Origin: Streptomyces sp. LS1784
GTDB lineage: Bacteria > Actinomycetota > Actinomycetes > Streptomycetales > Streptomycetaceae
DNA: 39,139 nt
NCBI RefSeq assembly: GCF_020103755.1
Contig: NZ_JAHSQD010000017.1
Coordinates: 1 to 39,139 of the forward strand
Direction: 5' to 3'
Below the pieces are notes generated by a model that saw only the letters and a program-made list of their open reading frames with translations, made no database searches and was not told the DNA's origin. The position numbers and the translations under genes are program-made. Below, in pieces: positions 6,061 through 32,426 of the stretch (the first letter of the stretch is position 1; every line of letters begins with the position of its first letter).

Positions 6061-6096
6061 GCCCCCATCTCGTTCGCTCTGGTTCCCGGCGCCGGT

Positions 6097-10872: not shown

Positions 10873-12045
10873 TCAGGCGAGCCGGCGGGCTCCGGCGGAG
10901 GCGGTGGCGACGAAGGTGCGCGGCGTGCGGTGGCCGGCTCGCGCGAATGCGGAGAGGACGGCCTCGCGGACGCTGCCGACCATCACCTCCGACACCAGGG
11001 CGATGACGGAGCCGCCGAAGCCGCCGCCGGTCATGCGGGCGCCGAGCGCGCCGGCTGCCTCGGCGGTGGCGGCGGCGAGGTCGGTCTCGGGGCACGAGAC
11101 CCGGTAGTCGTCGCGGAGCGAGGCATGCCCGGCGGTGAGGATCGGACCGAGTCCGGCCGGGTCTCCGGCGCTCAGCAGGGCGACTGCCTGTTCGACCCGG
11201 GCGTTTTCGGTCACCACGTGCCGCACCAACGGCCGGAGCTCGGCCGGCAGCCGGTCGAGAGCCTCGGCCAATCCGCTCGACGGAAGGTCCCGCAGGGTGA
11301 GGACGCCGAGCGCCTCGGCGGCCCGCTCGCAGCCTGCGCGCAGCTTGGCGTAGGCACCGTCGGCCAGGTCGTGCTTGACCCGGGTGTCGATCACCAGCAG
11401 CCGGAGGCCGTCGAGTGCCAGCGGGACCTGTCGGGAGCCGAGATCGCGGGTGTCGAGGAACAGCGCGGCGTCCGCTGTGCAGCACATGCTGGCCATCTGG
11501 TCCATGACGCCGCAGGGGACGCCGACGAACTCGTTCTCGGCGCGCTGCGCCACCAGAGCCAGCTCCGTCCTGGAGAGACCCAGTCCGTTGAGGTCGTTGT
11601 ACGCCGTGGCGACCGCGCATTCGAGCGCCGCCGAGGAGGACAGCCCGGCACCGGCGGGCACGTCGCTGTCGATGTGCAGATCCGCACCGCCGATCAGGTG
11701 CCCGTCCTCGCGCAGCGCCCACACGACGGCCGCCAGGTACTTGGCCCAGCCGGTGACGCTGCCGGGTGCCAGGTCGGCCACCCGCAGCTCGACGGTAGGC
11801 CCGTCGGCCTGCCGGCTGTGCAGGCGCAGCAGGTCGTCGGATCGGCGTCGGACCGCGACACTGGTGTGCTGCGGGATGGCGAGCGGAAGCACGAAGCCGT
11901 CGTTGTAGTCGGTGTGCTCGCCGATCAGGTTGATCCGGCCGGGTGCCGCCCAGACGCCCTCGGGCTCGGTGCCGAAGACGGACTGGAAGTGGTGTGTCAC
12001 GGGGTGTTCCGGGTGTCTCTCGTGAGGTGACGTGTGCTCAGCCAT
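10873..12045 (-). CDS. galK: Galactokinase
   Basis: The product is 390 residues. The galactokinase signature GRINLIGEHTDYNDG is at 36-50, the GHMP ATP loop is PAGAGLSSSAALE, the catalytic aspartate lies in GVPCGVMDQMAS, and the third motif is MTGGGFGGS. It phosphorylates alpha-D-galactose to galactose-1-phosphate with ATP in the cytoplasm. ATG 12045 overlaps the galT stop by eight bases, so the two are coupled. It is the last gene of the ROK-SBP-permease-fucosidase-galT-galK unit and handles galactose released by the GH36 enzyme or by GH29-trimmed sugars. No galE or galM is present in the window. Confidence 0.95.
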   Translation of the reverse strand: MAEHTSPHERHPEHPVTHHFQSVFGTEPEGVWAAPGRINLIGEHTDYNDGFVLPLAIPQHTSVAVRRRSDDLLRLHSRQADGPTVELRVADLAPGSVTGWAKYLAAVVWALREDGHLIGGADLHIDSDVPAGAGLSSSAALECAVATAYNDLNGLGLSRTELALVAQRAENEFVGVPCGVMDQMASMCCTADAALFLDTRDLGSRQVPLALDGLRLLVIDTRVKHDLADGAYAKLRAGCERAAEALGVLTLRDLPSSGLAEALDRLPAELRPLVRHVVTENARVEQAVALLSAGDPAGLGPILTAGHASLRDDYRVSCPETDLAAATAEAAGALGARMTGGGFGGSVIALVSEVMVGSVREAVLSAFARAGHRTPRTFVATASAGARRLA

Positions 12046-13129
12046 GGGTGGTGGCGACCTCGCGCAGGCGCTCGGCGGCGGTCTCCGGTGCCACGTCGTT
12101 GACGAAGGCGTCCATGCCGGATTCGACGCCGGCCAGGTACTTGAGCTTGTCGGCGGTGCGGCGGACGGTGAACAGCTCCAGGTGCAGGGCCAGTTCGTGT
12201 CCGCTCGCGGCGGGTGCCTGGTGCCAGGCGGAGATGTACGGGGTCGGGCCACCTCCGAAGAGCCGGTCGAAGCGGCGCAGCAGTTCCAGGTACAGGGTGG
12301 GGAACTCGGCGCGTTCGGCCTCGTCGAGGTGGGTCAGGTCGGCTACCCGGCGGTGCGGGTAGAGGTGGACCTCGTAGGGCCAGCGGGCGGCGAAGGGGAC
12401 GAAGGCCGTCCAGTGTTCGCCGGCCAGGACGACCCGCGCGCCGTCGGCGCGTTCGGCGGCGAGCAGGTCCTCGAAGAGGTTGCCGCCGGTGCGGGCGCGG
12501 TGATCGGCCGCCGCGGTGATCATGCGCTCGGTGCGAGGGGTGACGAAGGGGAGGGCGTAGATCTGGCCGTGCGGGTGGGCGAGGGTGACGCCGATCTCGG
12601 CGCCGCGGTTCTCGAAGCAGTAGACCTGCTGGATGCCGGGGCGCGTGGCGAGGTCCGCGGTGCGGTCGGTCCAGGCGTCCAGGACGAGGCGGGCCTGCGC
12701 CGGGGTGAGATCGGCGAAGCTCGCTGTGTGGTCGGAGGTGAAGCAGACCACCTCGCATCGTCCGGCGGCGGGTGCGCTGGTGCGGAGCGGGGCGTCGGAG
12801 CGGCCGACGTGGGCGGCGGCGTCGAAGGCCAGCGAGGGGAAGCGGTTCTCGAAGACCGCCACTTCGTAGGCGTCGGCGGGGATTTCGGTCGCCCATCCGT
12901 CGCGGGACGGGCAGAGCGGGCACTGGTCGGCCGGTGGGTGGTAGGTGCGGCCCTGGCGGTGGGCGGCGATGGTGACCCAGTCGCCGGTGGCCGGGTCGCG
13001 GCGGATCTCGGACAGTGCGGTGGTGGGTTCGAGCGGGCGCGGGTCCGTCGTGTCTCGGAGCGCGGTGTCGTCCGCGTCGAAGTAGAGGATCTCGCGGCCG
13101 TCGGCGAGCTTGGTGGCGGTCTTCTTCAT
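12038..13129 (-). CDS. galT: Galactose-1-phosphate uridylyltransferase
   Basis: The product is 363 residues from ATG 13129 (MKKTATKLADGREILYFD, the usual actinobacterial start; an in-frame ATG four codons earlier is possible). Zinc ligands are in CPLC (70-73) and the catalytic HPH is in LAHPHGQIY near 185-187, where the second histidine is the uridylylated nucleophile. It exchanges UMP between UDP-glucose and galactose-1-phosphate. It lies 26 bp after the fucosidase gene and overlaps galK. Together they give two of the three Leloir steps. Confidence 0.95.
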   Translation of the reverse strand: MKKTATKLADGREILYFDADDTALRDTTDPRPLEPTTALSEIRRDPATGDWVTIAAHRQGRTYHPPADQCPLCPSRDGWATEIPADAYEVAVFENRFPSLAFDAAAHVGRSDAPLRTSAPAAGRCEVVCFTSDHTASFADLTPAQARLVLDAWTDRTADLATRPGIQQVYCFENRGAEIGVTLAHPHGQIYALPFVTPRTERMITAAADHRARTGGNLFEDLLAAERADGARVVLAGEHWTAFVPFAARWPYEVHLYPHRRVADLTHLDEAERAEFPTLYLELLRRFDRLFGGGPTPYISAWHQAPAASGHELALHLELFTVRRTADKLKYLAGVESGMDAFVNDVAPETAAERLREVATTHG

Positions 13130-13155
13130 GGTTGCGTGCATTCGGTTCCGGGAGG

Positions 13156-14529
13156 CTACGCGGGGTGCGCGGCGCTCGGTGCGTCGACGAGCTCGATCTT
13201 CACGACGGTGTCGGTCGGGTCCGGCAGCGGGTAGGTGAAATGGCCGATCTCGCCGAACTGGACGAACGGGATGTCGGGGTAGGACTTGATCACCCAGGCG
13301 TCGCACAGCTGGAGTTCGCGGCCGTCGGCGAGCAGCGTGATCCTGCCGATGTCCTTCGGAAGGAGTCCGCCGGTCAGGGCGAGCGGTCCGATCGGCGGGC
13401 GCAGGACGTGGGCGTACAGGGTGTTCCCGTTGCGGGTGTAGTAGCCCCATTCCGGGGTTTCCAGGCCGGCGGGACCCGCGCCGTGGACGGATTCGCCGTT
13501 GGCGGCGAGCCAGGCGCCGATCGCCTGAAGTCGCTCGACGGCCTCGGGTTGGATCCGGCCCCGCGGGTCGGGTCCGACGTTGAGTAGCAGGTTGCCGCCC
13601 TTGGCCACGCACTCCACGAGCTTGGTGATCAGCTGCCCGGGGCTCTTCCACAGGTCGTCGCCGGCGGTGTAGCCCCAGTTGTTGTTGATCGTGATGCAGG
13701 CTTCCCACGGCACGGGGCTGCCGTCCTCGGCGCGGATGCCGTCGACCGGGATCAGCTGCTCGGGGGAGGCGAAGTCGCCGCTGTAGTCGGTGGGCGCGTC
13801 GGTCACGATGGAGCCGGGGCCGCCGCCATCGGCTTCCAGCCGGTTGTCGATGAGCGCGGTCGGCTGCAGCTCTCGGACCATCTCGATCAGTTCCTGCGCG
13901 CCCCACTCCTGCGGGCCCATGCCCTCGTAGGAGAAGTCGAACCAGAGGATGTCCAACTGCCCGTAGCTGGTACACAGCTCCCGGATCTGGCCGTGCATGT
14001 AGGCCCGGTACGACTCCAGGTCGGGCCGGTGGTCGGCGAAGGCGGGGTTCTCGCGCTCGGGGTGGATGAGGTCGCCGTAGTGCGGGTAGTCGGGGCGGTG
14101 CCAGTCGAGGAGCGAGTAATAGAGGCCGACCTTGATGCCGCGGGCGCGGAAGGCGTCGAGGAACTCGCGGACCAGGTCGCGGCCGATGCCGTTGTGCATG
14201 CTGCCGTACTCGGTGAGCGCCGAGTCGAACAGGCAGAACCCGTCGTGGTGCTTGGCGGTCAGCACCGCATACTTCATGCCGGCGGCCTCGGCGAGGGCTG
14301 CCCAGGCGTGCGGGTCGTAGTCCTCGGCACCGAAGCCGTCAACGGCGAACCGGTAGTCCTCGATGCCGATCTGCTCGTGCGAGCGGACCCATTCACCGCG
14401 GGCCGGGACGGCGTAGGGGCCCCAGTGGATGAACATGCCGAAGCGGTCGCGGCGGAACCAGTCCGAGCGCTCGAACCGCGCCGGCACCTCGATCGGCAGG
14501 CCCTTGTGGCCGATGGTCGTCTCACTCAT
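13156..14529 (-). CDS. GH29 alpha-L-fucosidase, cytoplasmic
   Basis: The 457-residue product has the GH29 features: FGMFIHWGPYAVPARGEW (30-47), AKHHDGFCLFDS (92-103) and LDILWFDFSYEG, where D198 is the expected nucleophile. There is no signal peptide or membrane span, so it acts inside the cell on imported oligosaccharides. The C-terminal 110 residues form a beta-sandwich, usual for the family. ATG 14529 overlaps the permease stop by ATGA, tying the enzyme to the importer. GH29 enzymes release alpha-L-fucose with retention; the exact linkage (alpha-1,2, 1,3 or 1,4) is not readable from sequence. Confidence 0.9.
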   Translation of the reverse strand: MSETTIGHKGLPIEVPARFERSDWFRRDRFGMFIHWGPYAVPARGEWVRSHEQIGIEDYRFAVDGFGAEDYDPHAWAALAEAAGMKYAVLTAKHHDGFCLFDSALTEYGSMHNGIGRDLVREFLDAFRARGIKVGLYYSLLDWHRPDYPHYGDLIHPERENPAFADHRPDLESYRAYMHGQIRELCTSYGQLDILWFDFSYEGMGPQEWGAQELIEMVRELQPTALIDNRLEADGGGPGSIVTDAPTDYSGDFASPEQLIPVDGIRAEDGSPVPWEACITINNNWGYTAGDDLWKSPGQLITKLVECVAKGGNLLLNVGPDPRGRIQPEAVERLQAIGAWLAANGESVHGAGPAGLETPEWGYYTRNGNTLYAHVLRPPIGPLALTGGLLPKDIGRITLLADGRELQLCDAWVIKSYPDIPFVQFGEIGHFTYPLPDPTDTVVKIELVDAPSAAHPA

Positions 14530-15371
14530 GCCTTCACCGCTCCCGCGACCATGCCGTTGACGATGTACTTCTGCGCGGTGAGGTACACCGCGACCACCGG
14601 CACCATGGTGAGAACCAGGTCGGCACAGACCAGCCCGTAGTCGAAGCTGTGCGTGGACTGGAAGGTGAAGACGGTCATGGGCAGGGTCCATCGGTCGGCG
14701 TCGGGGATCAGGAAGAGCACGTTCTGGAACTCGTTCCAGGCGTAGGTGAAGACCAGGATCAGCGCGGTCGAGCTGACCGGCCGCAGCAGCGGGAAGATGA
14801 TCGTGAAGAACATCCGCAGCGAACCCGCGCCGTCCAGCATGGCGGCCTCGTCGATCTCCTTCGGCAGCTGCCGAATGAAGCCGACGTAGATCAGGGTGAT
14901 GAACGGGATCTGCACGGCGACATCGGTGAGGATCAGTCCCAGGTAGGAGCCGCCGAGGCCGATCTCCTGGAGCAGCCGGATCGCCGGAATGAAGGCGAAG
15001 GGTGCGATGAGTCCGGTGAGCAGGTAGCTGTAGACGCCTCCCGTCACCCGGCCCGGTCGCCGGGCGATGACGAAGGCGGCCAGCGAACACACCAGGACGG
15101 TGACCGCGGTCACCGCCGCCGAGATCAGCACGCTGTTCCCGAGTGCCTGGAGGGCGTTGCCGGTGCGGATGACGGTCAGGTAGTTGTCGAAGTGCCAGCT
15201 GCTGGGCAGCGAGAAGCTCATGGTCTGGGAGTCCGCGGCGCCCTTGACGCTGGTCAGCAGGACCAGGGCCAGCGGGGCCAGGAACACCAGGGCGATGAGG
15301 ACGGCCGTGGCGTACGTGGCCACGGCGGCCAGGATGCCGCCGGGCCGGCGCCGGTTGCGCTGCCGGGTCAC
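14526..15371 (-). CDS. Carbohydrate ABC transporter permease (MalG type)
   Basis: The product is 281 residues with six predicted membrane spans (first about 13-40, last about 245-268). The EAA loop that docks the ATPase is at 172-185 (EIDEAAMLDGAGSL). It belongs to the CUT1 family for oligosaccharides. ATG start is inside the end of the partner permease (4-bp overlap). No ATPase gene lies in the cluster; Streptomyces CUT1 importers usually share the MsiK ATPase encoded elsewhere. Confidence 0.9.
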   Translation of the reverse strand: MTRQRNRRRPGGILAAVATYATAVLIALVFLAPLALVLLTSVKGAADSQTMSFSLPSSWHFDNYLTVIRTGNALQALGNSVLISAAVTAVTVLVCSLAAFVIARRPGRVTGGVYSYLLTGLIAPFAFIPAIRLLQEIGLGGSYLGLILTDVAVQIPFITLIYVGFIRQLPKEIDEAAMLDGAGSLRMFFTIIFPLLRPVSSTALILVFTYAWNEFQNVLFLIPDADRWTLPMTVFTFQSTHSFDYGLVCADLVLTMVPVVAVYLTAQKYIVNGMVAGAVKA

Positions 15372-16303
15372 GGCGTCGCCTCCATCCTGCGTACGAAGCG
15401 GTTGATGACCAGCGCGATGACGGTGATCAGGACGAACTGGAAGACGTTGACGGCGGCGGCGTAGCCCAGCGAGCCGGTGTTGAGCTGCTTGTAGACGTAG
15501 GAGGTGAGCACCTCGGTCGCGGTGCCGGGGCCGCCGCCGGTGGTGGCGTAGATCAGGTCGAAGCCCTTCATGCCGGTGATGAAGGTGATCAGTGCCGCCA
15601 GGTTGACCGCGTGGCGGATGTACGGGAGCTTGATGTGCCGCACCACCTGCCAGGGCCTGGCACCGTCGAGCTCGGCGCTCTCGATCAGCTCGGTCGGCAC
15701 AGCCTGGAGTGCGGCCAGCACCAGGACCACCGTCCAGCCCACGCCCATCCAGACGTCGACGGCGGTGACGCTGTAGAGCGCGAGGTCGAAACTGCCGAAC
15801 CAGTCGTTGGCGAGCCCGAAGGGCTTCAGCAGGGCGTTGACCGGGCCGTCGGACTTGAGCAGGTAGTTGAAGAGCAGGCCGACCACGATGGTGGAGAACA
15901 TGATCGGCAGGTAGACCACCACGCGCAGGACCTTGCTGCCGCGGAACGCCCGGTTGAGCAGGAAGGCGATCGCGATTCCGAGGACGGTCTTGCCGACCGT
16001 CACGCAGGCCGCGTAGACGAACTGGTTGGCGGTGGCGTTCCAGAGGGCCGTTCCGTCGCCGAACAGCAGGCGATAGTTGGCCAGGCCGACGAAGTTGGTG
16101 TCGGGCACGTAGGTCGAGGCGTCGGTGAGGGACAGGTACATCCCGAAGAACGCCGGCAGCAGGAAGAAGACCGTGAAGACCACGACTGCCGGGACGAGGT
16201 ACGTGTAGGGGTAGACGCGGTCCACGCCCTGGCGGGACCGGCCGGCCGCCTTGGCGGCTCGGCCGGTCTCCGCCTTCTGCCGCCTGGGGGCAGCGATGCT
16301 CAT
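15368..16303 (-). CDS. Carbohydrate ABC transporter permease (MalF type)
   Basis: The product is 311 residues with a basic cytoplasmic N-terminus and six membrane spans beginning at about 33. The EAA loop is at 205-227 (ELIESAELDGARPWQVVRHI). It pairs with the MalG-type permease that overlaps it. ATG 16303 lies 19 bp after the binding-protein stop. CUT1-type permeases import di- and oligosaccharides, which fits uptake of fucosylated galacto-oligosaccharides released outside the cell. Confidence 0.9.
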   Translation of the reverse strand: MSIAAPRRQKAETGRAAKAAGRSRQGVDRVYPYTYLVPAVVVFTVFFLLPAFFGMYLSLTDASTYVPDTNFVGLANYRLLFGDGTALWNATANQFVYAACVTVGKTVLGIAIAFLLNRAFRGSKVLRVVVYLPIMFSTIVVGLLFNYLLKSDGPVNALLKPFGLANDWFGSFDLALYSVTAVDVWMGVGWTVVLVLAALQAVPTELIESAELDGARPWQVVRHIKLPYIRHAVNLAALITFITGMKGFDLIYATTGGGPGTATEVLTSYVYKQLNTGSLGYAAAVNVFQFVLITVIALVINRFVRRMEATP

Positions 16304-16322
16304 GGGTTCGTATCCGCTCGTG

Positions 16323-17600
16323 TCAGAAGCCGGCGGTGCCGGCCTTGGCGCCCGCGCTCTGCCAGGCCTTCTGCACCTGGTCGGCGAACTTCGCGGTGTC
16401 GGTCTGCTTGCCGATCAGCTGCTGGTAGGCGGCGATGATGTCGTCCTGCGGCTGCGGGATCGCCGACTGCTGGTCGAAGGGGACGACGGAGCCGCCCTGG
16501 TCGACGAGCTTCTGCAGGTCGGCGACGCCGTCGGAGGCATTGGCCGCCTTGACGTCGGTGAAGGCGGAGACGCCGGGGTTCGCGTCCATGAACTTCTGGG
16601 CCTGCGGCTGGTCGACCATGAAGTTCAGGAAGTCCTGGGCCTGCGGGGCGACCTTGGAGAACTTGGCGACCTTGAGCAGGTTGGGCTTCTGGAGCCCGAG
16701 CGTGGTCTTGCCGTCCGCCGACGGCAGGAGGAAGAAGCCCAGGTGCGCCGAGGGGTTGACCTTGGCGACGGCGGCGAGCGCCCAGGTGCCGTTGACGATC
16801 GCACCGGCCTTGCCGTTCGCGAGGGCGGCGGTGGCGGAGTCGTAGGTGGCGGTCAGCGCGTCAGGGTTGGTCAGCCCATGGCCGACCCAGTCCGCGAGGG
16901 CCTGGTACTCCGGGGTGAAGCCGGGGATGTCGGCCCACTTGCTCTGGTTGGCGTCGAGCTTGGCGGCGAGCTGCGGGTCGGCGCCCACGAAGTTCGCGTT
17001 GACGGCGCTGCGGTGCTGGAGCAGCGTCCACCCGTCCTTGCCGCTGACGTACAGCGGCGTGGCGCCGGTGGCCTTGACCTTCTCCAGGTCGGCCTCGAAC
17101 TCGGCCAGCGTGGTGGGCGGCGCGGTGACGCCCGCCTTGGTGAACACGTCCTTGTTGTAGATGACGCCGGTGGCGTTCAGGCCGTCGGCGCTCGGGGTGC
17201 CCCAGACCGTGCCGTCGGGGGCGGTGATCGCCTTGCGGACGTCCGGGGTGAGCCGCTCGATCCACGGGCCGGTGGCCGGCTGCATCAGGGCGGCCTTGTC
17301 CTTGACGGTGTCCTGGCCGGCGAAGATGTCCACGCCGCTCTTGGCCGCCAGGCGGGCCTGCACCAGCGAGTCGTAGTTGGCATCCGGCACCGGGGTGAGC
17401 TTGACGGTGTTGCCGGTCTGCTTCTCCCACGCGTGGACGTTGTCCTGGAAGCCCGGCACGTTCGCCCAGGAGGTGGGGAGCATGTAGGTGATGGTGGCGT
17501 GTCCGGAGCCCTCGGACTGGCTGGAGCTGGAGCAGCCGGTGAGGGCTGCGGCCACCATCGCCGTGGTCCCGATCGCGGCGGCGATTCTGATTCTGGGCAT
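16323..17600 (-). CDS. Sugar-binding lipoprotein of the ABC importer
   Basis: The 425-residue product starts with a lipoprotein signal peptide ending in the lipobox LTGC, so Cys23 is lipidated and the protein is anchored outside the membrane. The remainder is a cluster B extracellular solute-binding protein (ITYMLPTSWANVPGFQDN, later GKAGAIVNGTWALAAVAK, the typical MalE-like hinge region). The start ATG 17600 is preceded by GAGAGGAA at proper distance. It follows the ROK gene by 57 bp and leads the permease genes. The ligand is predicted to contain galactose and fucose from its neighbours only. Confidence 0.9.
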   Translation of the reverse strand: MPRIRIAAAIGTTAMVAAALTGCSSSSQSEGSGHATITYMLPTSWANVPGFQDNVHAWEKQTGNTVKLTPVPDANYDSLVQARLAAKSGVDIFAGQDTVKDKAALMQPATGPWIERLTPDVRKAITAPDGTVWGTPSADGLNATGVIYNKDVFTKAGVTAPPTTLAEFEADLEKVKATGATPLYVSGKDGWTLLQHRSAVNANFVGADPQLAAKLDANQSKWADIPGFTPEYQALADWVGHGLTNPDALTATYDSATAALANGKAGAIVNGTWALAAVAKVNPSAHLGFFLLPSADGKTTLGLQKPNLLKVAKFSKVAPQAQDFLNFMVDQPQAQKFMDANPGVSAFTDVKAANASDGVADLQKLVDQGGSVVPFDQQSAIPQPQDDIIAAYQQLIGKQTDTAKFADQVQKAWQSAGAKAGTAGF

Positions 17601-17657
17601 GACGGGGTTCCTCTCGGGTGGGTGGAGGTGAGGAAGAGCGGGGGCGGCCGGGTGCCG

Positions 17658-18848
17658 CTAGGCGCCGGCGGGCTGGGGCACCCGGCGGCGGCGGTCGGCT
17701 AAGGCCGTGAGCAGCGGGCCGATGTCGATCCGGGCGGGGAAGGCCGGGTCGCCGAGCAGGGTGTCGAAGGTGCTGCTCAGTGCCGTCTGCAGGACGCCGA
17801 GGGAGGGGCCGAAGACCGGGAACTGGGTGACGGCCAGGTCCAGCGGATAGGCGCGCCGGAGCAGGGTCGTCAGTCGCGCGTCGATCCGGTCGGTGAGCGC
17901 GCGCCGGCCGGCCACGGGGCCGCCGAGCACGATCAGCTGCGGGTCGATCGCCAGGGTCAGGTAGGCGATCTGCCGCGCGGCCCGGTCGGCGAAGCGGTCG
18001 AGTTCCGCTTGGCTGTCCTGGTCGCCGCGGTCGGCGGCTTCCAGGACGGGGAGGAAGGATTCCAGTTCGGCCCAGTGTGCGGGGGTTTCCGGGCCGTCGT
18101 CGATCAGGTTCAGCTCGCCGGCCATGTTCCGGCTGCCGCGGTGGATCCGGCCGTCCAGGACGATGCCGGCCGCCACCTGGTGCCAGGCGAGCACCAGGGC
18201 GAAGGTGTCGGCGCCGCGCGCGGCTCCGTACCAGTGCTCGGCGACGGCGGCCGCGTTCAGGTCGTGCTCCACGATCACCGGGACCTCGCCGAACGCCAGC
18301 CCTGCCTCGGCCGGTGAACGGCCCTGCAGGTCGGGGTGGTGCGGCGAGTAGCTGATCCGGCCGTCGGGACCGATGCCGCCGGTCAGCGCGACGCCGAGGC
18401 CGAGCCAGCTGCCGTGGGTGGTGCGCAGCCGGGCTACCAGGCGGCCCAGCCGCTCCCGCAGGCCGACGATCCGCTCGTGGCCTGGCAGCGGCTGCGGTTC
18501 GTGGTGTTCGCCGATGTGCAGGATCCGTCCGCCGATGTCACAGACGATGATCCGCTCGGTGTGCTTGGCGATCTCCGCGCCGATCACGAAGCCGTGCTCG
18601 CTGCGGAAGCGGAAGCGCGAGGCCGGTCGGCCGCCGCTGGGCGTGGGCGACTTCCCGTGCGACGCGCCGGTGGTGACCTCGACCAGTTCGGGGAGCTCCG
18701 CCAGCCGTTCCTTGACCGTAGGCCGGGACAGCCCGGTGGCGGTCGCGAGCTGGGTGAGCGTCGCCTCGCCGAGACCACGCAGCGCGGCCGCACAGGCGGC
18801 CGTCGTCGACCTGGGGGAAGGGTCGCCGTCGAACGCGGACGCGGTCAC
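17658..18848 (-). CDS. ROK-family transcriptional regulator
   Basis: I chose GTG 18848 because GGAGGAG lies just upstream; an ATG four codons earlier (18860) has no space for a binding site. The product is 396 residues: an N-terminal winged HTH (LTQLATATGLSRPTVKERLAEL) and a ROK sugar-kinase-like domain (EHDLNAAAVAEHWYG, GIVLDGRIHRGSRNMAGELN, later LIVLGGP). The usual ROK zinc motif CxCGxxGCxE is missing, so it is not an active glucokinase. It is the first gene of the importer unit and divergent to the GH98 gene, so it probably represses both in the absence of a sugar ligand. Confidence 0.85.
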   Translation of the reverse strand: MTASAFDGDPSPRSTTAACAAALRGLGEATLTQLATATGLSRPTVKERLAELPELVEVTTGASHGKSPTPSGGRPASRFRFRSEHGFVIGAEIAKHTERIIVCDIGGRILHIGEHHEPQPLPGHERIVGLRERLGRLVARLRTTHGSWLGLGVALTGGIGPDGRISYSPHHPDLQGRSPAEAGLAFGEVPVIVEHDLNAAAVAEHWYGAARGADTFALVLAWHQVAAGIVLDGRIHRGSRNMAGELNLIDDGPETPAHWAELESFLPVLEAADRGDQDSQAELDRFADRAARQIAYLTLAIDPQLIVLGGPVAGRRALTDRIDARLTTLLRRAYPLDLAVTQFPVFGPSLGVLQTALSSTFDTLLGDPAFPARIDIGPLLTALADRRRRVPQPAGA

Positions 18849-18894
18849 GGTCTCCTCCATTCTCCAGGGCGTGTGACACGGGTATTGCAGGCCC

Positions 18895-19044
18895 GTTTCG
18901 AATCCGTGTTTCGTAACCGGCTGCGAGGACCGTAGGTCAAGGCCGCAGGTCGCGCAACGATTCCGAAAGGATTCCACACGAGCTTTCGAAACCCCGCACC
19001 ATAACCGGACGTGCCTGCGCAGACGCGTATTGCCATCGGTTATG
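18895..19044. promoter_or_regulatory. Divergent promoter/operator region between ROK and GH98 genes
   Basis: The 312-bp gap 18849-19160 holds no gene but repeated motifs. GTTTCG occurs at 18895 and 18908 (GTTTCGAA and GTTTCGTAA, 13 bp apart) and its inverse CGAAAC at 18987-18992. TAACCGG occurs at 18914-18920 and 19002-19008, and its inverse CGGTTA at 19037-19042, so CATAACC (19000-19006) faces GGTTATG (19038-19044). These are plausible operators for the ROK regulator controlling both directions. Confidence 0.4.
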
Positions 19045-19160
19045 AAGTCCGGCCGTCCCCCCCTCCGAATCGCTTTCCCTCACCGGCCGGGGTCGCCTAC
19101 CGTTCGCTTCCCCACCCCCTGCGGCCCAATGGCGGACCGCGCACCCCCAGGAGTACAGCC

Positions 19161-21461: not shown

Positions 21462-21486
21462 TCACTCCCCATCGGAAGACGAACGC

Positions 21487-23631: not shown

Positions 23632-23634
23632 GAG

Positions 23635-23680: not shown

Positions 23681-23692
23681 GCTGATCTCCGG

Positions 23693-25305: not shown

Positions 25306-25613
25306 AGGCGCCACACCACCGGGAGCCCGGCGGCGGCGCCGTCCTCGGAGTAGTCGTGGACGACGTCGAGGAGTTCGGCCATCCGTGCCTGCCAGGCGAT
25401 GTTCACCGGGAGGTGTTCGAGTTCGGCGAGCAGCCGGGCGTAGTCCTCGCACTCCAGGAGGTGGAACAGCTCGCAGCCGCTGCGCCAGATCGTCCAGGAG
25501 GAGACACCCGCTGCGCGGATGGCGGCCGTCAGCTCGTCCGGCACGGCACGGTGGGCGGCCTCGTACTCCTCGATCCGGTCCTCGCGGACGCGGGTGTGCA
25601 GGGCGATCCTCAT
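25302..25613 (-). CDS. L-rhamnose/L-fucose mutarotase family protein (RhaM-like)
   Basis: The 103-residue product has the RhaM/DUF718 fold signature: MRIALHTRVREDRIEEYEAA, the central SGCELFHLLE strand and NIAWQARMAELLD. It interconverts alpha and beta anomers of a 6-deoxy-L-sugar, and in this operon L-fucose is the natural substrate. ATG 25613 overlaps the lutC stop by ATGA and its own stop overlaps the lactonase GTG. The first 20 or so residues include the expected catalytic-site histidine (H6). Confidence 0.85.
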   Translation of the reverse strand: MRIALHTRVREDRIEEYEAAHRAVPDELTAAIRAAGVSSWTIWRSGCELFHLLECEDYARLLAELEHLPVNIAWQARMAELLDVVHDYSEDGAAAGLPVVWRL

Positions 25614-26275
25614 GGGTGCTGCTCCGGGTGGGTGGGGTCGGCAGAGGCGTCGACGATGACGACGTCGAGGGTGCGGGGGCCGTGGACGCCTTCGACCCGG
25701 TTGAGTTCGATGTCGCTGGTGGCGGACGGGCCGGAGATGAAGGTGAGCGGCCGGGTGGGGTCGAGGCGGGTGAGGGCGTCGGGGACGTCGTCGGCGATCT
25801 GCTCGGCGCGGACGATGCACAGGTGGTAGTCGGGGACGAGGGTGAGGGCGCGGCGGCCCTGGCCGGGGCCGGCGTCGAGGACGATGGTCCCGGTGACGGC
25901 GATGCCGGCGGCGGCGAGGGTGATCACCCCGTCCAGCGCGTCGAGTTGGGGGACGTCCAGCGGTTCGGGGTGCCACTCCCAGTCGCCGGGCGGCAGCAGC
26001 TCGACGGGAAAGCCGCCGGGCAGGGCCAGCTGCCGTACGCCCCGCGCGGTGAGGGCGGCGGCAATGGCAGCGGGCAGTCCGGCCCGGTCGGTGCGGGTGA
26101 CGGTGGCCCGGTAGTCGGCGACCCGTTCGGCGAACAGGGCGACGCAGTCGCCGCCCGGTTCGACGTGGCTGCGGCGGTAGTTCCTCGGAACGGGTACGTC
26201 CTCGGGGGTTTCACCGCGCGGGACGTCGGTGAGGGCGGCGCGGATGCGGCCGAGGATGGCCTCGCGGCTGCTCAT
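25610..26275 (-). CDS. lutC: L-lactate utilization protein LutC
   Basis: The 221-residue product is an LUD-domain protein (SSREAILGRIRAAL at the start; later DALDGVITLAAAGIAVTG and ALTLVPDYHLCIVRAEQI), the standard LutC/YkgG form. It is the third subunit of the LutABC complex that oxidises L-lactate to pyruvate. ATG 26275 overlaps the lutB stop by ATGA. Its presence in a fucose operon fits L-lactate as an end product. Confidence 0.9.
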   Translation of the reverse strand: MSSREAILGRIRAALTDVPRGETPEDVPVPRNYRRSHVEPGGDCVALFAERVADYRATVTRTDRAGLPAAIAAALTARGVRQLALPGGFPVELLPPGDWEWHPEPLDVPQLDALDGVITLAAAGIAVTGTIVLDAGPGQGRRALTLVPDYHLCIVRAEQIADDVPDALTRLDPTRPLTFISGPSATSDIELNRVEGVHGPRTLDVVIVDASADPTHPEQHP

Positions 26276-27735
26276 CGCTCCTTCTCCTCCTTGTTCTCGC
26301 GCCACCAGCTGCGGAAGGACTGGGCGGGCGGCGCGGGGGTGTCGCGGGTGTCGGACCAGCCGTGCAGCGGTCCGGGCAGCCGTCCGATCCGCCCCTTCCG
26401 GGCGAGGGCCCGGCCGCCCAGCGCGGCCGCCTTCTGGGCGGCGGCGAGCAGCCGCGGGGAGTCGAGGACGGTGGCAGCCGCCTTCATCGCCGCCGCCTCG
26501 GCGGTGGGCAGGCGCTTGGCGGATCGCTTCGCCTCGACGGCCTCGGCCCGCAGGTGGGCGAGGACCTCCGGGATGTTGATCTTCACGGGGCAGGCGTCGT
26601 AACAGGCCCCGCAGAGGGTGGAGGCGAACGGCAGGCTCGCGGCGTTCTCCACGCCCACCAGCTGCGGGGTCAGCACCGCGCCGATCGGCCCGGGATAGAC
26701 CGAGCCGTACGCGTGGCCGCCGGTGCGCTCGAAGACCGGGCAGACGTTGAGGCAGGCCGAGCAGCGGATGCAGGCGAGGGCCTGGCGGCCGACGGTGTCG
26801 GCGAGGGTGTCGGTGCGGCCGTTGTCGAGCAGGACGAGGTGGAACGTCTGCGGCCCGTCGCCCTCCGTCGTCCCCGCCCAGGTGGAGGTGTACGGATTCA
26901 TCCGCTCGCCGGTGGAGGAGCGCGGCAGCAGCTGCAGGAACACCTCCAGGTCCGTCCAGGTGGGGACGACCTTCTCGATGCCCATCACGGTGATCAGGGT
27001 CTCGGGCAGGGTGAGGCACATCCGGCCGTTGCCCTCGGATTCGACCACGACGACCGTACCGGTGTCCGCAACCGCGAAGTTGGCGCCGGAGACGGCGACC
27101 TTGGCGGTGAGGAACTTCTCCCGCAGGTGGCGGCGTGCCGCCTCGGCGAGTTCCGCCGGCTCGTCACTCAGGCCCTCGGGGGCGGGCTGGCCCCACTCCC
27201 CCATCCGGGCGGCGAAGATGTCGCGGATCTCGGTGCGGTTCCGGTGGATCGCGGGGACGAGGATGTGGGAGGGCCGGTCGTCGCCCAACTGGACGATCAG
27301 CTCGGCGAGATCGGTCTCGTAGGCGGTGATCCCGGCCTCGGCGAGGTGCTCGTTGAGGCCGATCTCCTGGGTCGCCATGGACTTGACCTTCACCACCTCC
27401 CGCTCCCCGGTGGCCCGGACCAGCTCGGTGACGATCCGGTTCGCCTCGGCCGCGTCCGAGGCCCAGTGGACGGTGCCGCCCGCCGCCGTGACGGACTGCT
27501 CCAACTGCACCAGGTAGCGGTCGAGATGGCGCGCGGTGCGCTTCTTGATCGCCGCGCCCGCTGCGCGCAGCGCCTCCCAGTCGTCCAGCTCCGAGGCGAC
27601 GGCGAGGCGCTTGTCGCGGATGGTGCCGGTGGCCCGCTTCAGGTTGGCGCGCAGCTGGGTGTCCTTCAACGCCTCGCGGGCGGCCTCGGGGAAGGACGGG
27701 GAGCCAAGCCAGACGACGCCTCTGTTCTCGTTCAT
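26272..27735 (-). CDS. lutB: L-lactate utilization iron-sulfur protein LutB
   Basis: The 487-residue product has an N-terminal LUD domain (VVKVKSMATQEIGLNEHL, then FLTAKVAVSGANFAVADTGT) and a C-terminal ferredoxin part with two 4Fe-4S motifs, CIRCSACLNVCPVF and CGACYDACPVKI. This is the LutB/YkgF architecture. It transfers electrons during L-lactate oxidation. ATG 27735 overlaps the lutA stop. The frame is intact. Confidence 0.93.
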   Translation of the reverse strand: MNENRGVVWLGSPSFPEAAREALKDTQLRANLKRATGTIRDKRLAVASELDDWEALRAAGAAIKKRTARHLDRYLVQLEQSVTAAGGTVHWASDAAEANRIVTELVRATGEREVVKVKSMATQEIGLNEHLAEAGITAYETDLAELIVQLGDDRPSHILVPAIHRNRTEIRDIFAARMGEWGQPAPEGLSDEPAELAEAARRHLREKFLTAKVAVSGANFAVADTGTVVVVESEGNGRMCLTLPETLITVMGIEKVVPTWTDLEVFLQLLPRSSTGERMNPYTSTWAGTTEGDGPQTFHLVLLDNGRTDTLADTVGRQALACIRCSACLNVCPVFERTGGHAYGSVYPGPIGAVLTPQLVGVENAASLPFASTLCGACYDACPVKINIPEVLAHLRAEAVEAKRSAKRLPTAEAAAMKAAATVLDSPRLLAAAQKAAALGGRALARKGRIGRLPGPLHGWSDTRDTPAPPAQSFRSWWRENKEEKER

Positions 27736-28472
27736 CGGGGCCCTCCGTCGGTGGCGGCGAGGATCTCGGCCAGGTGCATGGTCCGAACTGGGCTTCCCTG
27801 GCGGGAGAGACCGCCGCCGATGTGCAGCAGGCAGGAGTTGTCGGCGGCGCACAGCACCTCGGCACCGCTGTCCAGAACTCCCTGCGCCTTGTCGGCGAGC
27901 ATCGCGCCGGAGGTCTCGGCGTTCTTGACGGCGAAGGTGCCGCCGAAGCCGCAGCAGGAGTCGGCCGCGGGGAGGTCGACCAGGTCGAGGTCCTTGACGG
28001 CGCGCAGCAGTCGCAGCGGCCGGTCGCCGAGCCGCAGGCCGCGCAGGGAGTGGCAGGTGGGGTGATAGGCGACCTTGTGCGGGAAGCGGGCGCCGACATC
28101 GGTGACGCCGAGGACGTCGGTGAGGAACTCGGTGAACTCGTGAACCCTGGGCGCCATTTCGGCGACCGCGACCTGGAGTCGTGGGGTGCCGTGCTGCTCG
28201 GCCAGTACGGCGTGGTTCTCGCGGATCATGCCGGCGCAGGACGCGGACGGGGTGATGACGGCGTCGTAGTCGGCGAAGGTGCGGACGAAGCGTTCCACCA
28301 GGGGGACGGCCTCCGGCCGATAACCGGTGTTGAACTGCATCTGCCCGCAGCAGGTCTGCTCCTGCGGGAACTCGACCGTATGGCCGAGACGCTCCAGAAC
28401 GGTCACCACGGCCCGGCCGGTGCCGGGGAACATGATGTCGTTGAAGCAGGTGATGAACAGGGCAATCCGCAT
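27732..28472 (-). CDS. lutA: L-lactate utilization protein LutA, CCG-domain
   Basis: The 246-residue product has two cysteine-rich CCG motifs, QTCCGQMQFNTGY near residue 40 and DSCCGFGGTFAVK near residue 190, typical of LutA/YkgE and heterodisulfide-reductase-like subunits. It is the first gene of the lutABC set and begins directly after the aldo/keto reductase stop. With LutB and LutC it oxidises L-lactate, here probably that made from L-fucose. Confidence 0.92.
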   Translation of the reverse strand: MRIALFITCFNDIMFPGTGRAVVTVLERLGHTVEFPQEQTCCGQMQFNTGYRPEAVPLVERFVRTFADYDAVITPSASCAGMIRENHAVLAEQHGTPRLQVAVAEMAPRVHEFTEFLTDVLGVTDVGARFPHKVAYHPTCHSLRGLRLGDRPLRLLRAVKDLDLVDLPAADSCCGFGGTFAVKNAETSGAMLADKAQGVLDSGAEVLCAADNSCLLHIGGGLSRQGSPVRTMHLAEILAATDGGPR

Positions 28473-29468
28473 CTACTCCTCATCTCCGGGGGTCGGGGCC
28501 TCGGCGGGCAGCAGCCCGCGCTCCTTGAGCTCCGCCCACAACCCGTCCGGGACGGGATGGTTGAGCATCGCGGCGGCGTCCCGTACCTCGGCGGCGCTGC
28601 GGGTGCCGACCAGCACGGACGCGACGGCCGGGTGGCCGAACGGGAAGCGCAGTGCGGCAGCGCGCAACGGGACGCCGTGCCGTTCGCAGACGGACTTCAA
28701 CCGCAGGGCCCGGTCGAGGAGTTCGGCGGGCGCTGCGGCGTAGTCGAAGGTGGCGCCGGGTTTCGGGTCGGCGAGCAGGCCGGAGTTGAACACCCCGCCG
28801 ACCACCAGGCCGACGCCGTGTTCGGCGGCCAGCGGCAGCAGTTCGGTCAGGCCGCGCTGGTCGAGGAGGCTGTAGCGGCCGGCCAGCAGGACGGCGTCGA
28901 TGTCGGTCTCCCGGACGAAGCGGGCCGGCAGTTCGGCCTGGTTCATGCCGATGCCGATCGCGCCGATCACGCCCTCGGCGCGCAGGCGTTCCAGCTCCGG
29001 GTAGGCCTCGGTGAGGGCCTGTTCGGCGTGGTCGTCCGGGTCATGGAGGTAGGCGATGTCGATCCGGTCGAGGCCGAGCCGGTTCAGGCTCTCCTCGATC
29101 GACCGGCGCACGCCCTCGGCGGTGAAGTCCCAGCGCCGGCGATGCGTCGCGGGGACGGCGAAGCCGTTGGCGAGGTCGTCGCCGTCGGGAGTGACCGGTT
29201 CGAGGATGCGACCGACCTTGGTGGACAGCACGTACTCGTCCCGGGGCCTGGCGCGCAGTGCCTCGCCGAGCCGCCGCTCGGACAGTCCGAGCCCGTAGTG
29301 CGGGGCGGTGTCGAAGTAGCGGACACCGGCCTCCCAGGCGGCACCTACGGACTGCGCCGCCTGCTCGTCGCTCACCCCCGTGAACAGGTTGCCGATCGCC
29401 GCCGCACCGAAGGCGAGTTCGCTCACCAGTACCGTGCTGCGCCCGAGCGGGTTGTGCCGCAGGTTCAT
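28473..29468 (-). CDS. Aldo/keto reductase, probable L-fucose dehydrogenase
   Basis: The 331-residue product is an AKR TIM-barrel with the tetrad in YFDTAPHYG (Asp, Tyr), LSTKVG (Lys) and IAYLHDPDD (His). The sequence resembles the D-threo-aldose 1-dehydrogenase / L-fucose dehydrogenase branch (LAFGAAAIGNLF at the start, then VGGVFNSGLLADP). It would oxidise L-fucose at C1 to L-fuconolactone with NAD(P)+. Its ATG overlaps the SDR stop and its TAG touches the lutA start. Substrate assignment rests on operon context plus subfamily resemblance. Confidence 0.85.
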   Translation of the reverse strand: MNLRHNPLGRSTVLVSELAFGAAAIGNLFTGVSDEQAAQSVGAAWEAGVRYFDTAPHYGLGLSERRLGEALRARPRDEYVLSTKVGRILEPVTPDGDDLANGFAVPATHRRRWDFTAEGVRRSIEESLNRLGLDRIDIAYLHDPDDHAEQALTEAYPELERLRAEGVIGAIGIGMNQAELPARFVRETDIDAVLLAGRYSLLDQRGLTELLPLAAEHGVGLVVGGVFNSGLLADPKPGATFDYAAAPAELLDRALRLKSVCERHGVPLRAAALRFPFGHPAVASVLVGTRSAAEVRDAAAMLNHPVPDGLWAELKERGLLPAEAPTPGDEE

Positions 29469-30226
29469 GCCGCCGGCTCCGGGCGCAGCCGCAGGCCGGC
29501 CATGCCGCCGTCCACCGCCAGCGCCGTCCCGGTGGTGGAGCCGGCGGCCGGAGAGGCGAGGTAGGCGACGGCGGCCGCCACCTCCTGCGCGCTGACCAGC
29601 CGGCCGGTGGGCTGCCGGCCGTTGAGGGCGGCGCGCTCGGCCGCCGGGTCGGCGGCGGCGTCCAGCAGGCGGCCGACCCACGGGGTGTCGACCGTGCCGG
29701 GGTTGACGCAGTTGACCCGGATGCCCTCGCGGACGTGGTCGGCGGCCATGGCCAGGGTCAGCGAGAGCACCGCGCCCTTGCTGGCCGAGTACAGCGCCCG
29801 CTGCGGCAGTCCGGCGGTGGCGGCGATGGAGCAGGTGTTGACGACCGAGGCGTGGGCCGACCGACGAAGGTACGGCAGGGCCGCCCGGGTGATGCGGACG
29901 ATGCCGAGCACGTTCACGTCCAGGACGCGGTGCCACTGATCGTCGGGGTTGTCCTCGACCGTCCCGGCGGCGCCGATGCCGGCGTTGTTGACCAGGATGT
30001 CGATGCCGCCGAGCGCCTCGGCCGCGCCCTCGACGGCCGTACGGACGGAGGCGTCGTCGCTGACGTCGGCGGTGAATCCGCGCAGTGGGGCGGGGGCGCC
30101 GCTCGGGTCGAGGTCGAGGACGGCGACGTCCGCGCCGCGCTCGGCGAGCAGCTGGGCGGTGGCCAGGCCGATGCCGGAGGCGCCGCCGGTGACCAGGGCG
30201 GTCAGGCCGATCAGGTCGGTGGTCAT
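29465..30226 (-). CDS. SDR-family dehydrogenase, probable 2-keto-3-deoxy-L-fuconate dehydrogenase
   Basis: The 253-residue product is a classical [11 protein letters not shown] near residue 14 binds NAD(P), NNAG is near 85, the active-site serine lies in [10 protein letters not shown], and YSASK holds the catalytic Tyr and Lys. D40 in VLDLDP after the second strand favours NAD+. In the diketo-hydrolase branch of non-phosphorylating L-fucose breakdown this enzyme oxidises C4 of 2-keto-3-deoxy-L-fuconate. An alternative is L-fucose dehydrogenase, which is also an SDR in some species. ATG 30226 overlaps the dehydratase stop. Confidence 0.85.
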
Positions 30227-31563
30227 GCGCGCTCCTCGGTCTTGGTGGTGGCCAGGTCGGCGGCCCAGAACGCGCCGTCGGGGTAACGGTAGGTGTCGAT
30301 GGTGGCCTGGTGCATGGCGGCCGAGAAACCGGGCGTGGTGGGTGCCAGGTAGTGGCCGTCGCCGATGCGGACCGGGTCGAGGAAGTGCTGGTGCAGGTGG
30401 TCGACGAACTCGATGACCCGGTCTTCCACCGTGCCGCTGAGCGCGACATAGTCGAACATCGACAGGTGCTGGACCAGCTCGCACAGGCCCACGCCGCCCG
30501 CGTGCGGGCAGACCGGTACGCCGAACTTGGCGGCGAGCAGCAGGATGGCCAGGTTCTCGTTGACGCCGGCCACGCGGGCGGAGTCCAGCTGGAGGAAGTC
30601 GATCGCCTCAGCCTGGAGTAGCTGCTTGAAGACGATCCGGTTCTGCACGTGTTCGCCGGTGGCGACCTTGACGGGGTGGACGCCGCCGCGGATGGCGGCG
30701 TGGCCGAGGATGTCGTCCGGGCTGGTCGGCTCCTCGATCCAGTACGGGTCGAACTCCGCGAGCGCCTTCGTCCACTCGATCGCCTCGGCGACGTCCCAGC
30801 GCTGGTTGGCGTCGATCGCGATCCGGATGTCCGGTCCGACGGCTTCGCGGGCGGTGCGGCAGCGGCGGACATCGTCCTGGAGGTCGGCGCCGACCTTGAG
30901 CTTGATCTGGGTGAAGCCGTCCGCCACCGCCTCCTTCGCGAGGCGGGTGAGCTTCTCGTCCGAGTAGCCCAGCCAGCCGGGCGAGGTGGTGTAGGCCGGG
31001 TACCCGCGGCGCAGCAGCTCGGCGGCCCGGTCGGCGGCGCCTTCCTTGCCCTTGCGCAGCAGCTCCAGGGCCTCGCCGGGGGTGAGCGCGTCGCTGATGT
31101 AGCGGAAGTCGACCTGGGAGACCAGCCATTCGGGGTCGGCGTCGGCGAGCAGCTGCCACAGCGGCTTGCCCTCGCGCTTGGCCGCGAGGTCCCAGACGGC
31201 GTTGACGACGGCGCCGATGGCCATGTGCATCACGCCCTTTTCCGGGCCGAGCCAGCGCAGCTGGCTGTCGCCGATCAGGTCGCGGTACAGCGAGCCCGGG
31301 TCCGCGCACAGCTCGACGACCGGCCGCCCGACGACGTGCTCGCGCAGCGCGTCGATGGCCGCGACCTGGACGTCGTTGCCGCGTCCGATGGTGAAGGTGA
31401 AGCCGTGGCCCTCGTGGCCGCCCGCCGAGGTGCGCAGCACCACGTACGCGGCGGAGTAGTCCGGGTCCGGGTTCATCGCATCCGACCCGTCCAGCTCGCG
31501 CGAGGTGGGGAAGCGGATGTCGTAGGTGTCGACGGCGGTGATCCGCGCCGTGGTGGTGGACAA
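30223..31563 (-). CDS. L-fuconate dehydratase (enolase superfamily)
   Basis: The 446-residue length and motifs match L-fuconate dehydratase: [11 protein letters not shown] (the KxK base), AIDANQRWD and IEEPTSPDD and ATGEHV as metal ligands, and [15 protein letters not shown] with the opposite-face histidine. It removes water from L-fuconate to give 2-keto-3-deoxy-L-fuconate. The start is TTG 31563, with GAGAGG about eight bases upstream; there is no better ATG or GTG. It lies 11 bp after the FAH gene. This is the most specific marker of the pathway. Confidence 0.93.
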
Positions 31564-31574
31564 CTCGATGCCTC

Positions 31575-32426
31575 TCAGGCGTTGATGAAGGTCTGCCGCT
31601 GGGTGCCGAGGCCGTCGATGGACAGCTCGACGGTGTCGCCCTCGCGCAGGTACGGATTGCCGGGCAGACCGAGGGCCACGCCGGCCGGGGTGCCGGTGTT
31701 GATGACGTCGCCGGGGCGCAGCACCATGTACTGGCTGAGGTACCAGACCACGTACGCAACGTCGAAGATCATGTTCTTGGTGTCACCGTCCTGCCGCGCC
31801 TCGCCGTTGACGGCCAGCCGCAGGCCCAGCGCCTGGACGTCCCCGACCTCGTCGGGCGTCACCAGCCAGGGGCCCAGCGGGTTGAAGGTCTCGCAGGACT
31901 TGCCGAGGTCCCACTGCGCGGAGTACTCCAGCTGGAACTCCCGCTCCGAGACGTCGTTGCTGACCGCGTAGCCCGCGATGTGCGCGCCCGCCTCGGCCGG
32001 GCTCGCCAGGTACCGGGCCTCGCGCCCGATCACCACCGCGAGCTCGACCTCCCAGTCGGTCTTCACCGACCCGCGCGGGATCAGCACCCGGTCGTACGGG
32101 CCGACCACGGTGGACGGGTCCTTCATGAACACCACCGGCCGCTCGGGGACGGCCGCGCCGGTCTCCTCCGCGTGGTCACGGTAGTTGAGCCCGACGCACA
32201 CCACCTTCCCCGGCCGCGCGACCGGAGCACCGACCCGACGCCCCTCGGTCTCCACCACGGGCAACGCCCCGCCCGCGAGCGCCTCCCGCACCCGCTCGAC
32301 CCCGCCCGAGGCCAGGAACGCCCCGTCGATCTCCTCGGCCACTCCCGACAGCCCGTGGGTCCGGCCGTCCTCGCCGAGCACCACGGGGATCTCCGCCCCG
32401 GGCTCGCCGATCCGCATCAGCTTCAT
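31575..32426 (-). CDS. Fumarylacetoacetate hydrolase-family protein, probable 2,4-diketo-3-deoxy-L-fuconate hydrolase
   Basis: ATG 32426 follows GGAGGTG, giving 283 residues. The FAH fold is clear: [27 protein letters not shown] and [10 protein letters not shown] (metal and substrate residues), and [12 protein letters not shown] near the C-terminus. In the diketo branch it cleaves 2,4-diketo-3-deoxy-L-fuconate to pyruvate and L-lactate. No aldolase gene is in the operon, and lutABC is, which supports that reaction. It is the first gene of the ten-gene operon, with an operator-like palindrome upstream. Confidence 0.88.

Follow-up and report, generated by a model that had tools for sequence, protein, structure and literature searches.

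Can one locus in a streptomycete account for the harvest of a fucosylated galactoside outside the cell, its uptake and its breakdown, and would it do so as one system or as several? The question is raised by a stretch of 39,139 nucleotides from Streptomyces sp. LS1784, the whole of which is referred to here as the window, and which is contig C374 of a 9.56 Mb genome in 1294 contigs. The locus, at positions 10,873-32,426, runs from the galK stop to the start of an FAH-family hydrolase gene. Genes for a glycoside hydrolase of family 98 (GH98) and for a GH36 enzyme on the plus strand diverge from a minus-strand set that encodes a ROK-family regulator, the solute-binding protein (SBP) and permeases of a CUT1 importer, a GH29 enzyme, GalT and GalK, and a ten-gene L-fucose operon adjoins them. 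Our reading, to which we give a probability of roughly 0.6, is that a rare module for glycan uptake, controlled by ROK, adjoins an L-fucose regulon common in streptomycetes and that the two serve the route set out below.

We infer every activity, substrate, transport and regulation step of this route. The GH98 enzyme, exported by the twin-arginine translocation (Tat) pathway and with its CBM32 module holding a galactose-rich glycan, would cut an internal β-glycosidic bond outside the cell and free a short oligosaccharide bearing both α-galactose and α-fucose, which the CUT1 binding protein, two permeases and a shared ATPase would import intact. In the cytoplasm GH36 would take off the α-galactose and GH29 the fucose, so that galactose or a short core remains. 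Galactose would enter the Leloir pathway, for which the window holds an extra galT-galK pair, and L-fucose would pass through a dehydrogenase, a lactonase, fuconate dehydratase, a short-chain dehydrogenase/reductase (SDR) and a diketo hydrolase, a non-phosphorylating sequence yielding pyruvate and L-lactate, the latter of which LutABC would oxidise to give another pyruvate. ROK may be released from the operator between the divergent ROK and GH98 genes by the oligosaccharide or by one of its breakdown products, and fucose may release a second regulator, probably of the GntR family, at the fucose operon and, in relatives, also at fucosidase genes.

The observations that carry this reading are gene families, conserved synteny, a conserved catalytic glutamate, and two operator-like motifs with their distribution. 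Gene content was checked using open reading frames, codon-position G+C and Pfam; starts were picked so that genes overlap or abut inside each operon, and the GH98 start was set from its ribosome-binding site and from relatives. The gene set of the three adjacent units is present as the original prediction had claimed, according to Pfam and PDB searches. GH98 itself is rare: PF08306 matched in 2/70 genus genomes and 2/394 family genomes, the own genome being counted in both, and in 2/396 genomes of a phylum set (own genome counted), where the second was Collinsella. An orthologue of the binding protein was found in the same two genomes as GH98, both in the genus (own genome counted) and in the family set, in a scan that covered at most 25 candidate places per genus genome and at most four per family genome and that weaker homologues could escape; GH98 and the binding protein would fall in the same 2/70 genomes with a chance of 1 in 2415 if independent. 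When the GH98 protein was compared with plasmid records by tblastn, 21 records matched, none covering 80% of it, and among the best 20 of the 21 records only the CBM32 end was matched. No description of a streptomycete GH98 or of a fucose-lut locus was found in the titles and abstract openings among the matches listed, subscription journals lying mostly outside that search.

Across 84,980 species, scanned with an alignment of three GH98 sequences, 11 loci were confirmed from 80 pattern-matching stretches; the scan relies on a pair of short peptide patterns, which some members may escape. The 11 loci belong to Streptomyces sp. NRRL F-5727, S. wedmorensis, Streptomyces sp. NRRL F-6131, Diplocloster, six streptococci and Collinsella tanakaei, bringing the Streptomyces copies to four with that of the window. 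The GH98 proteins of F-5727 and S. wedmorensis are 74% identical to that of the window and the F-6131 protein 28% (27% over 692 residues). Importer, GH29 and GH36 genes accompany GH98 in all four Streptomyces loci. F-5727 and S. wedmorensis keep the divergent order GH36-GH98 / ROK-SBP-permease-permease-GH29 at 66-87% identity; F-6131 has ROK-SBP-permease-permease-GH29-GH36 in a single line (70-83%) followed by a transposase gene, with its GH98 gene about 2 kb from GH36 and a second ROK gene (42%) beside it. GH36 is 75-78% identical within the same cluster in each of the three relatives. Since the F-6131 GH98 is 27% identical and has the same partner genes, GH98 is associated with importer, GH29 and GH36 genes in two of its lineages. 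A search of actinobacterial neighbourhoods, which the original prediction had proposed as a check, therefore finds the GH98-GH36-GH29 grouping in three other Streptomyces, and with the module recurring in this way the proposed gene logic of an outside cut, import, and cytoplasmic α-galactosidase and α-fucosidase feeding separate pathways is supported.

Fuconate dehydratase, which was expected in the same neighbourhood, belongs to the fucose operon. In the window 62 bp separate this operon from GH36. Its distance from GH29 in F-5727 is about 3.5 kb, with a GH95 gene carrying F5/8 modules in between, and in S. wedmorensis it is about 20 kb away from the module and has GH95 on its far side. The operon is thus within 20 kb in three of the four genomes; in F-6131 it is on a different contig. 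This bears on the possibility that there are three separate units, in which the module imports an α-galactoside that bears hardly any fucose or none, and the fucose operon is its neighbour only by descent or chance. Such a reading is favoured by the F-6131 arrangement, by separate operators, and by the frequency of fuconate dehydratase (36/70 genus genomes) beside a module in 2/70. It is nevertheless improbable in our judgement: GH29 adjoins the importer in 4/4 loci, the fucose operon is close by in 3/4, and the F-6131 module contig has GH29 genes with fucose-operator sites just upstream.

Those sites come from a comparison of the two operator-like motifs. An inverted repeat, TTYCGAAA-N15-TTTCGRAA, is kept at ROK in four genomes (upstream of ROK in F-6131), its presence there being by construction because the pattern was derived from those four sites; nowhere else in the four genomes, and so not at the fucose operon either, is the pattern matched again. 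At the fucose promoter there is a different conserved element, ACATCGGATGA-like, with two copies in the window; the reverse of this fucose pattern gave no match in four genomes. A degenerate form of the fucose pattern yielded 11 sites without mismatch across five contig stretches, where shuffles lead one to expect about 0.4. Seven of the 11 are at fucose promoters, again by construction. The other four belong to the contig that holds the F-6131 module, where they mark the 5' ends of one large β-helix gene and of two GH29 genes whose accessory modules are PA14/CBM6 or ricin-lectin. A shared operator for all three units was considered and rejected, as the ROK and fucose patterns keep to separate units. 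Judging from these motifs there appear to be two regulatory circuits and not one: the ROK operator was matched at the module alone and the fucose operon has a separate operator, so that the locus does not look like the single co-regulated three-unit system originally envisaged. As a separate observation, the GH29 and β-helix genes on the 84 kb module contig of F-6131 (L069:5938-12537, L070:8069-11897) form a fucose-glycan island.

The membership of the exported enzyme in GH98 is well supported. PF08306 scored 46.1 bits (cut-off 23), and inspection by eye shows a Tat-like signal, TRRRFLS. The second module belongs to F5/8 type C/CBM32 and is nearest to galactose oxidase and to a bacterial sialidase whose module recognises galactose. 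Solved relatives of the catalytic part are Sp4GH98 (2wmf, 2wmg and 2wmh; E about 1e-21), RgGH98 (1e-10) and Sp3GH98 (6e-7). A profile of three close orthologues compared with the PDB gave Sp4GH98 at 2e-25, Sp3GH98 at 8e-11 and RgGH98 at 9e-10, and the Bacteroides ovatus GH98 xylanase was not among its matches at E 0.1. The predicted model, aligned to solved folds with VIA-align, matched 2wmh best (Z 32.3; root-mean-square deviation 3.2 over 323 residues), then the xylanase 9h6h (Z 28.3) and RgGH98 (7q1w; Z 22.6), and Foldseek finds the same enzymes. By modelled fold, then, the xylanase appears no more distant than RgGH98, and this match with the B. ovatus endoxylanase is what speaks for a plain endo-xylanase, or another plant-cell-wall enzyme, with the fucose and galactose genes as neighbours by chance. 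We regard that reading as highly improbable: the sequence search puts Sp4GH98 first with the xylanase outside its matches, the window open reading frames scanned gave no xylose-pathway or xylosidase match, and GH29, GH36 and the importer are found with GH98 in 4/4 Streptomyces loci.

In the active site, Glu221, Asp250 and Glu365 are kept in 9/9 aligned GH98 sequences, an alignment that omits three near-identical streptococcal sequences (L014, L016 and L017) of the 11 loci. Glu221 falls on the general acid position (Ala in 2wmg) in alignments to both 2wmf and 2wmh, and E411 of RgGH98 falls one residue off it in a direct pairwise alignment; Asp250 and Glu365 are presumably part of the catalytic machinery. 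In RgGH98, fucose is contacted by Tyr289, His330 and Thr371, according to PMC8730463. At the corresponding column of the multiple alignment, histidine occurs in four firmicute sequences and one from Collinsella, with isoleucine in all three close Streptomyces orthologues and a gap in F-6131; in the direct pairwise alignment H330 meets the glycine next to that isoleucine. The column is equated with H330 because the two align with one and the same part of the window, a placement that is uncertain by one residue at such identity. Thr371 falls on Asn/Gln in the multiple alignment and elsewhere in the pairwise one and was not used, and Tyr289 could not be mapped. The Streptomyces enzymes thus apparently have no histidine opposite H330 in either alignment.

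Because the catalytic glutamate is kept and the fucose-contact histidine apparently lost, family membership is supported and blood-group specificity is not, and the Fuc-α-1,2-Gal specificity originally proposed for GH98 is correspondingly weakened. A GH98 that releases the blood-group B or A trisaccharide would match the enzyme set of the window, which is what that trisaccharide needs, and the nearest solved enzymes are Sp4GH98, Sp3GH98 and RgGH98. We nonetheless consider this specificity unlikely, given the apparent lack of the histidine, the ranking of Sp4GH98, a Lewis Y enzyme and not an A/B one, as the nearest GH98, and an identity to that kind of about 23% (S. mitis sequences). To our knowledge, the characterised GH98 enzymes target host antigens (in gut or respiratory bacteria) or xylan, and they cut β linkages. 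For the latter reason basidiomycete fucogalactan, one of the natural substrates first suggested, is unlikely to be cut directly if its backbone is an α-galactan. We tentatively propose, with somewhat less than even confidence, that the Streptomyces GH98 has a new GH98 activity, in which a fucosylated α-galactoside is recognised without the histidine contact and which, with a dedicated ROK-controlled uptake module that four streptomycetes are so far known to have, would serve a fungal, invertebrate or plant glycan that no characterised GH98 is known to cut.

The partner enzymes fit a small product. GH29 is nearest by far to 6gn6 in the PDB (E 1e-161, the next match being at 2e-66), which we take to be the P. 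thiaminolyticus iso1 enzyme placed in GH29-A cluster 3. Two cluster-3 GH29-A enzymes are reported to be broadly active on α-1,2/6 linkages (PMC11189522). GH36 is nearest to AgaB (4e-96) and AgaSK (5e-95) in the PDB. No β-galactosidase or hexosaminidase match in Pfam was found in the window open reading frames scanned, in keeping with a released piece that has galactose at its end, and if that piece is α-galactose and α-fucose on galactose the window enzymes would suffice. The claimed CUT1 importer is present as regards its parts for binding and passage, an SBP_bac_1 lipoprotein and two BPD_transp_1 permeases; no ATPase was seen among the window open reading frames scanned, and two UgpC-type ATPases score above cut-off elsewhere in the genome. 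Similarly, galT and galK are in the window as claimed and are not members of the conserved module, since among the four genomes compared they adjoin it in the window only. Galactokinases number two in the window's genome and one, located elsewhere, in each of the three relatives; apparent galT matches in the relatives were rejected as an out-of-frame overlap of a long galT reading frame with GH29.

The neighbouring L-fucose operon is distributed differently from the module. Its dehydratase is close to the characterised L-fuconate dehydratase 1yey and its FAH-family hydrolase to L-2,4-diketo-3-deoxyrhamnonate hydrolase (8gsr); the lactonase, dehydrogenases and diketo hydrolase are of the right families, with scores under NCBIfam cut-offs. 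Three of the ten genes are lutABC, implicated in the oxidation of L-lactate to pyruvate (PMC3924224). Because the operon includes lutABC, the route is predicted to pass through L-lactate and to end at pyruvate, so that the lactate end point of the original prediction is replaced. Fuconate dehydratase was matched in 36/70 genus genomes at E up to 1e-60; in one of them the match is a fragment, and some have no match but a 73-74% form. A survey of 15 operon loci from 15 of the 36 genomes (12 at 84-91% identity, three at 73-74%) found lutABC complete in nine, all among the 12 close ones; one close locus (L051) keeps a lutB fragment, and two of the 12 as well as the three distant ones have none. 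All four module-bearing genomes have a fucose operon with lutABC, and a GntR match lies at the mutarotase/lactonase end of the operon in 9/12 close relatives. The ten-gene fucose-lutABC operon looks like a standard streptomycete operon.

Several observations weigh against our reading and were considered together. The co-occurrence of GH98 and the binding protein in 2/70 genomes may reflect shared descent. For the enzyme, the GH98 C-terminal domain PF08307 scored 22.6 bits against a cut-off of 25, the model is of moderate quality (predicted local distance difference test score 59), and the histidine contact is apparently missing; we know of no AgaB/AgaSK-type enzyme that is a B-antigen enzyme. 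For regulation, neither operator is found at the other's unit, and the reversed ROK pattern had one match in the window's genome and none in the other three. Chance fucose sites are estimated by hand from base frequencies at about two per genome, and the window's genome has two extra fucose-pattern sites (C336 and C420) beside no recognised gene, going by open reading frames. F-5727 has variants and no exact 11-base fucose site. One-mismatch site pairs lie just upstream of GH95 genes in F-5727 and S. wedmorensis, and they are only suggestive because shuffles predict 2 to 4.5 such sites in each stretch. For synteny, besides the separate contig of the fucose operon in F-6131, F-5727 carries a second GH36 and, about 6 kb past its fucose operon, a GH35 β-galactosidase; in S. 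wedmorensis a GH92 lies beside GH36. The window has no GH35, second GH36 or GH92, and the full substrate may therefore need more enzymes than the window holds.

Table 1. Features of the locus in the window, with their positions, strand and the basis of each assignment
Feature	Position	Strand	Basis
galK, galactokinase	10873..12045	-	Pfam
galT, galactose-1-phosphate uridylyltransferase	12038..13141	-	Pfam
GH29 α-L-fucosidase, no signal peptide seen	13156..14529	-	Pfam; PDB 6gn6
CUT1 permease B (BPD_transp_1)	14526..15371	-	Pfam; relatives
CUT1 permease A (BPD_transp_1)	15368..16303	-	Pfam; relatives
CUT1 solute-binding lipoprotein (SBP_bac_1)	16323..17600	-	Pfam; lipobox LTGC
ROK-family regulator	17658..18860	-	Pfam; 66-70% identical in 3 relatives
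Putative ROK operator, inverted repeat TTYCGAAA-N15-TTTCGRAA	18961..18991	.	ROK-GH98 divergent region
GH98 putative exported endo-glycosidase, Tat-like signal, C-terminal CBM32/F5-F8 module	19161..21461	+	Pfam, PDB, fold
GH36 α-galactosidase, no signal peptide seen	21487..23631	+	Pfam; PDB AgaB, AgaSK
GntR/FCD regulator, likely for fucose operon	23693..24439	-	Pfam; position in relatives
L-fuconolactonase (amidohydrolase)	24436..25305	-	Pfam; NF052480 (L-fucono-1,5-lactonase) E 3e-70, under its cut-off
L-fucose/L-rhamnose-type mutarotase	25302..25613	-	TIGR02625 weak, under cut-off; conserved position
lutC	25610..26275	-	LUD domain (Pfam)
lutB	26272..27735	-	TIGR00273 above cut-off
lutA	27732..28472	-	Pfam CCG
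Aldo-keto reductase, probable L-fucose dehydrogenase	28473..29468	-	Pfam; nearest solved are L-galactose dehydrogenases
SDR, probable 2-keto-3-deoxy-L-fuconate dehydrogenase	29465..30226	-	SDR families only, under cut-offs; operon position
L-fuconate dehydratase	30223..31563	-	1yey E 1e-209
FAH-family probable 2,4-diketo-3-deoxy-L-fuconate hydrolase	31575..32426	-	Pfam; 8gsr E 1.7e-73; NF053535 under cut-off
Two ACATCGGATGA operator-like sites	32474-32484, 32629-32639	.	upstream of fucose operon

Around these features, a DeoR-family regulator (window 32,655-34,001) adjoins the fucose operon; next to the operon in the relatives that were compared, nothing matches it. S. wedmorensis has, divergent from its fucose operon, a ribose-type importer of the ATP-binding cassette (ABC) class (Peripla_BP_4, ATPase and BPD_transp_2; L038:11927-16044), which is likely an L-fucose importer; the window has the DeoR regulator in that place. 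Upstream of the locus, a gene of the FAD-dependent D-arabinono-1,4-lactone oxidase type (7,719-9,011) lies behind a LysR regulator (6,040-7,593). At locus L055, a GH36 that is 58% identical to that of the window (match from 2725) lies within a few kb of a remote homologue of fuconate dehydratase. Two tRNA calls by ARAGORN, tRNA-Arg (11,129-11,212) and tRNA-Val (30,026-30,122), are probably false, since they fall within galK and the SDR gene, respectively, on the opposite strand.

If the rare module beside a common fucose regulon is as we read it, the streptomycete GH98 branch with its conserved partners constitutes a small, defined gene set for finding a new substrate, and a GH98 endo-enzyme of new specificity, if true, would be a useful glycan tool. 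From the conserved fucose-lut operon one can predict a complete path that turns L-fucose into two pyruvates, and the two operator motifs make its regulation and that of the module directly testable.

A close known counterpart by gene families is the fucose locus of Streptococcus pneumoniae, whose endo-β-galactosidase we take to be an Sp3-type GH98. Its ABC-importer variant (RD13; strains CGSP14, 670, G54 and 70585) comprises, according to PMC6722419, an endo-β-galactosidase, an α-galactosidase, a three-part importer and fucose catabolism. The window resembles it, by family only, in joining an endo-enzyme, an α-galactosidase and an ABC importer in one locus. Unlike the pneumococcal locus, which uses fucose isomerase and fuculose-phosphate aldolase, it has a ROK gene, a non-phosphorylating fuconate route with lutABC, and a GH98 whose fucose contacts appear to be altered; the window open reading frames scanned gave no Pfam match to fucose isomerase or fuculose-phosphate aldolase. 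The Streptomyces locus works like known GH98 loci but falls outside the pneumococcal type in its catabolism. In Ruminococcus gnavus ATCC 29149, GH98 belongs to a mucin-induced operon together with GH95, a gene of a fucosidase family (PMC8730463). That enzyme is blood-group-A-specific, its partners differ from those of the window (GH73, GH95, and GH31 in a neighbouring operon), and no histidine of the Streptomyces enzymes aligns with its H330 contact. Other GH98 loci show further combinations: in Diplocloster modestus (L012:9917-18530) GH98 is followed by a CUT1 binding protein, a permease and GH95, in Streptococcus mitis (L013) it occurs with GH95, a phosphotransferase system component, L-fucose isomerase (FucI) and an FGGY sugar kinase, and in the actinobacterial Collinsella tanakaei (L018/L008) with GH95, FucI and an FGGY sugar kinase. 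The GH98 proteins of these three are 22-23% identical to that of the window, and no GH36 was found among the proteins scanned. In its catabolism the window is like the non-phosphorylating L-fucose pathway (fclABCDE, PubSEED), its dehydratase resembling 1yey, and differs from that pathway in having lutABC inside the operon, where it is complete in 9/12 close relatives, so that L-lactate should be oxidised further.

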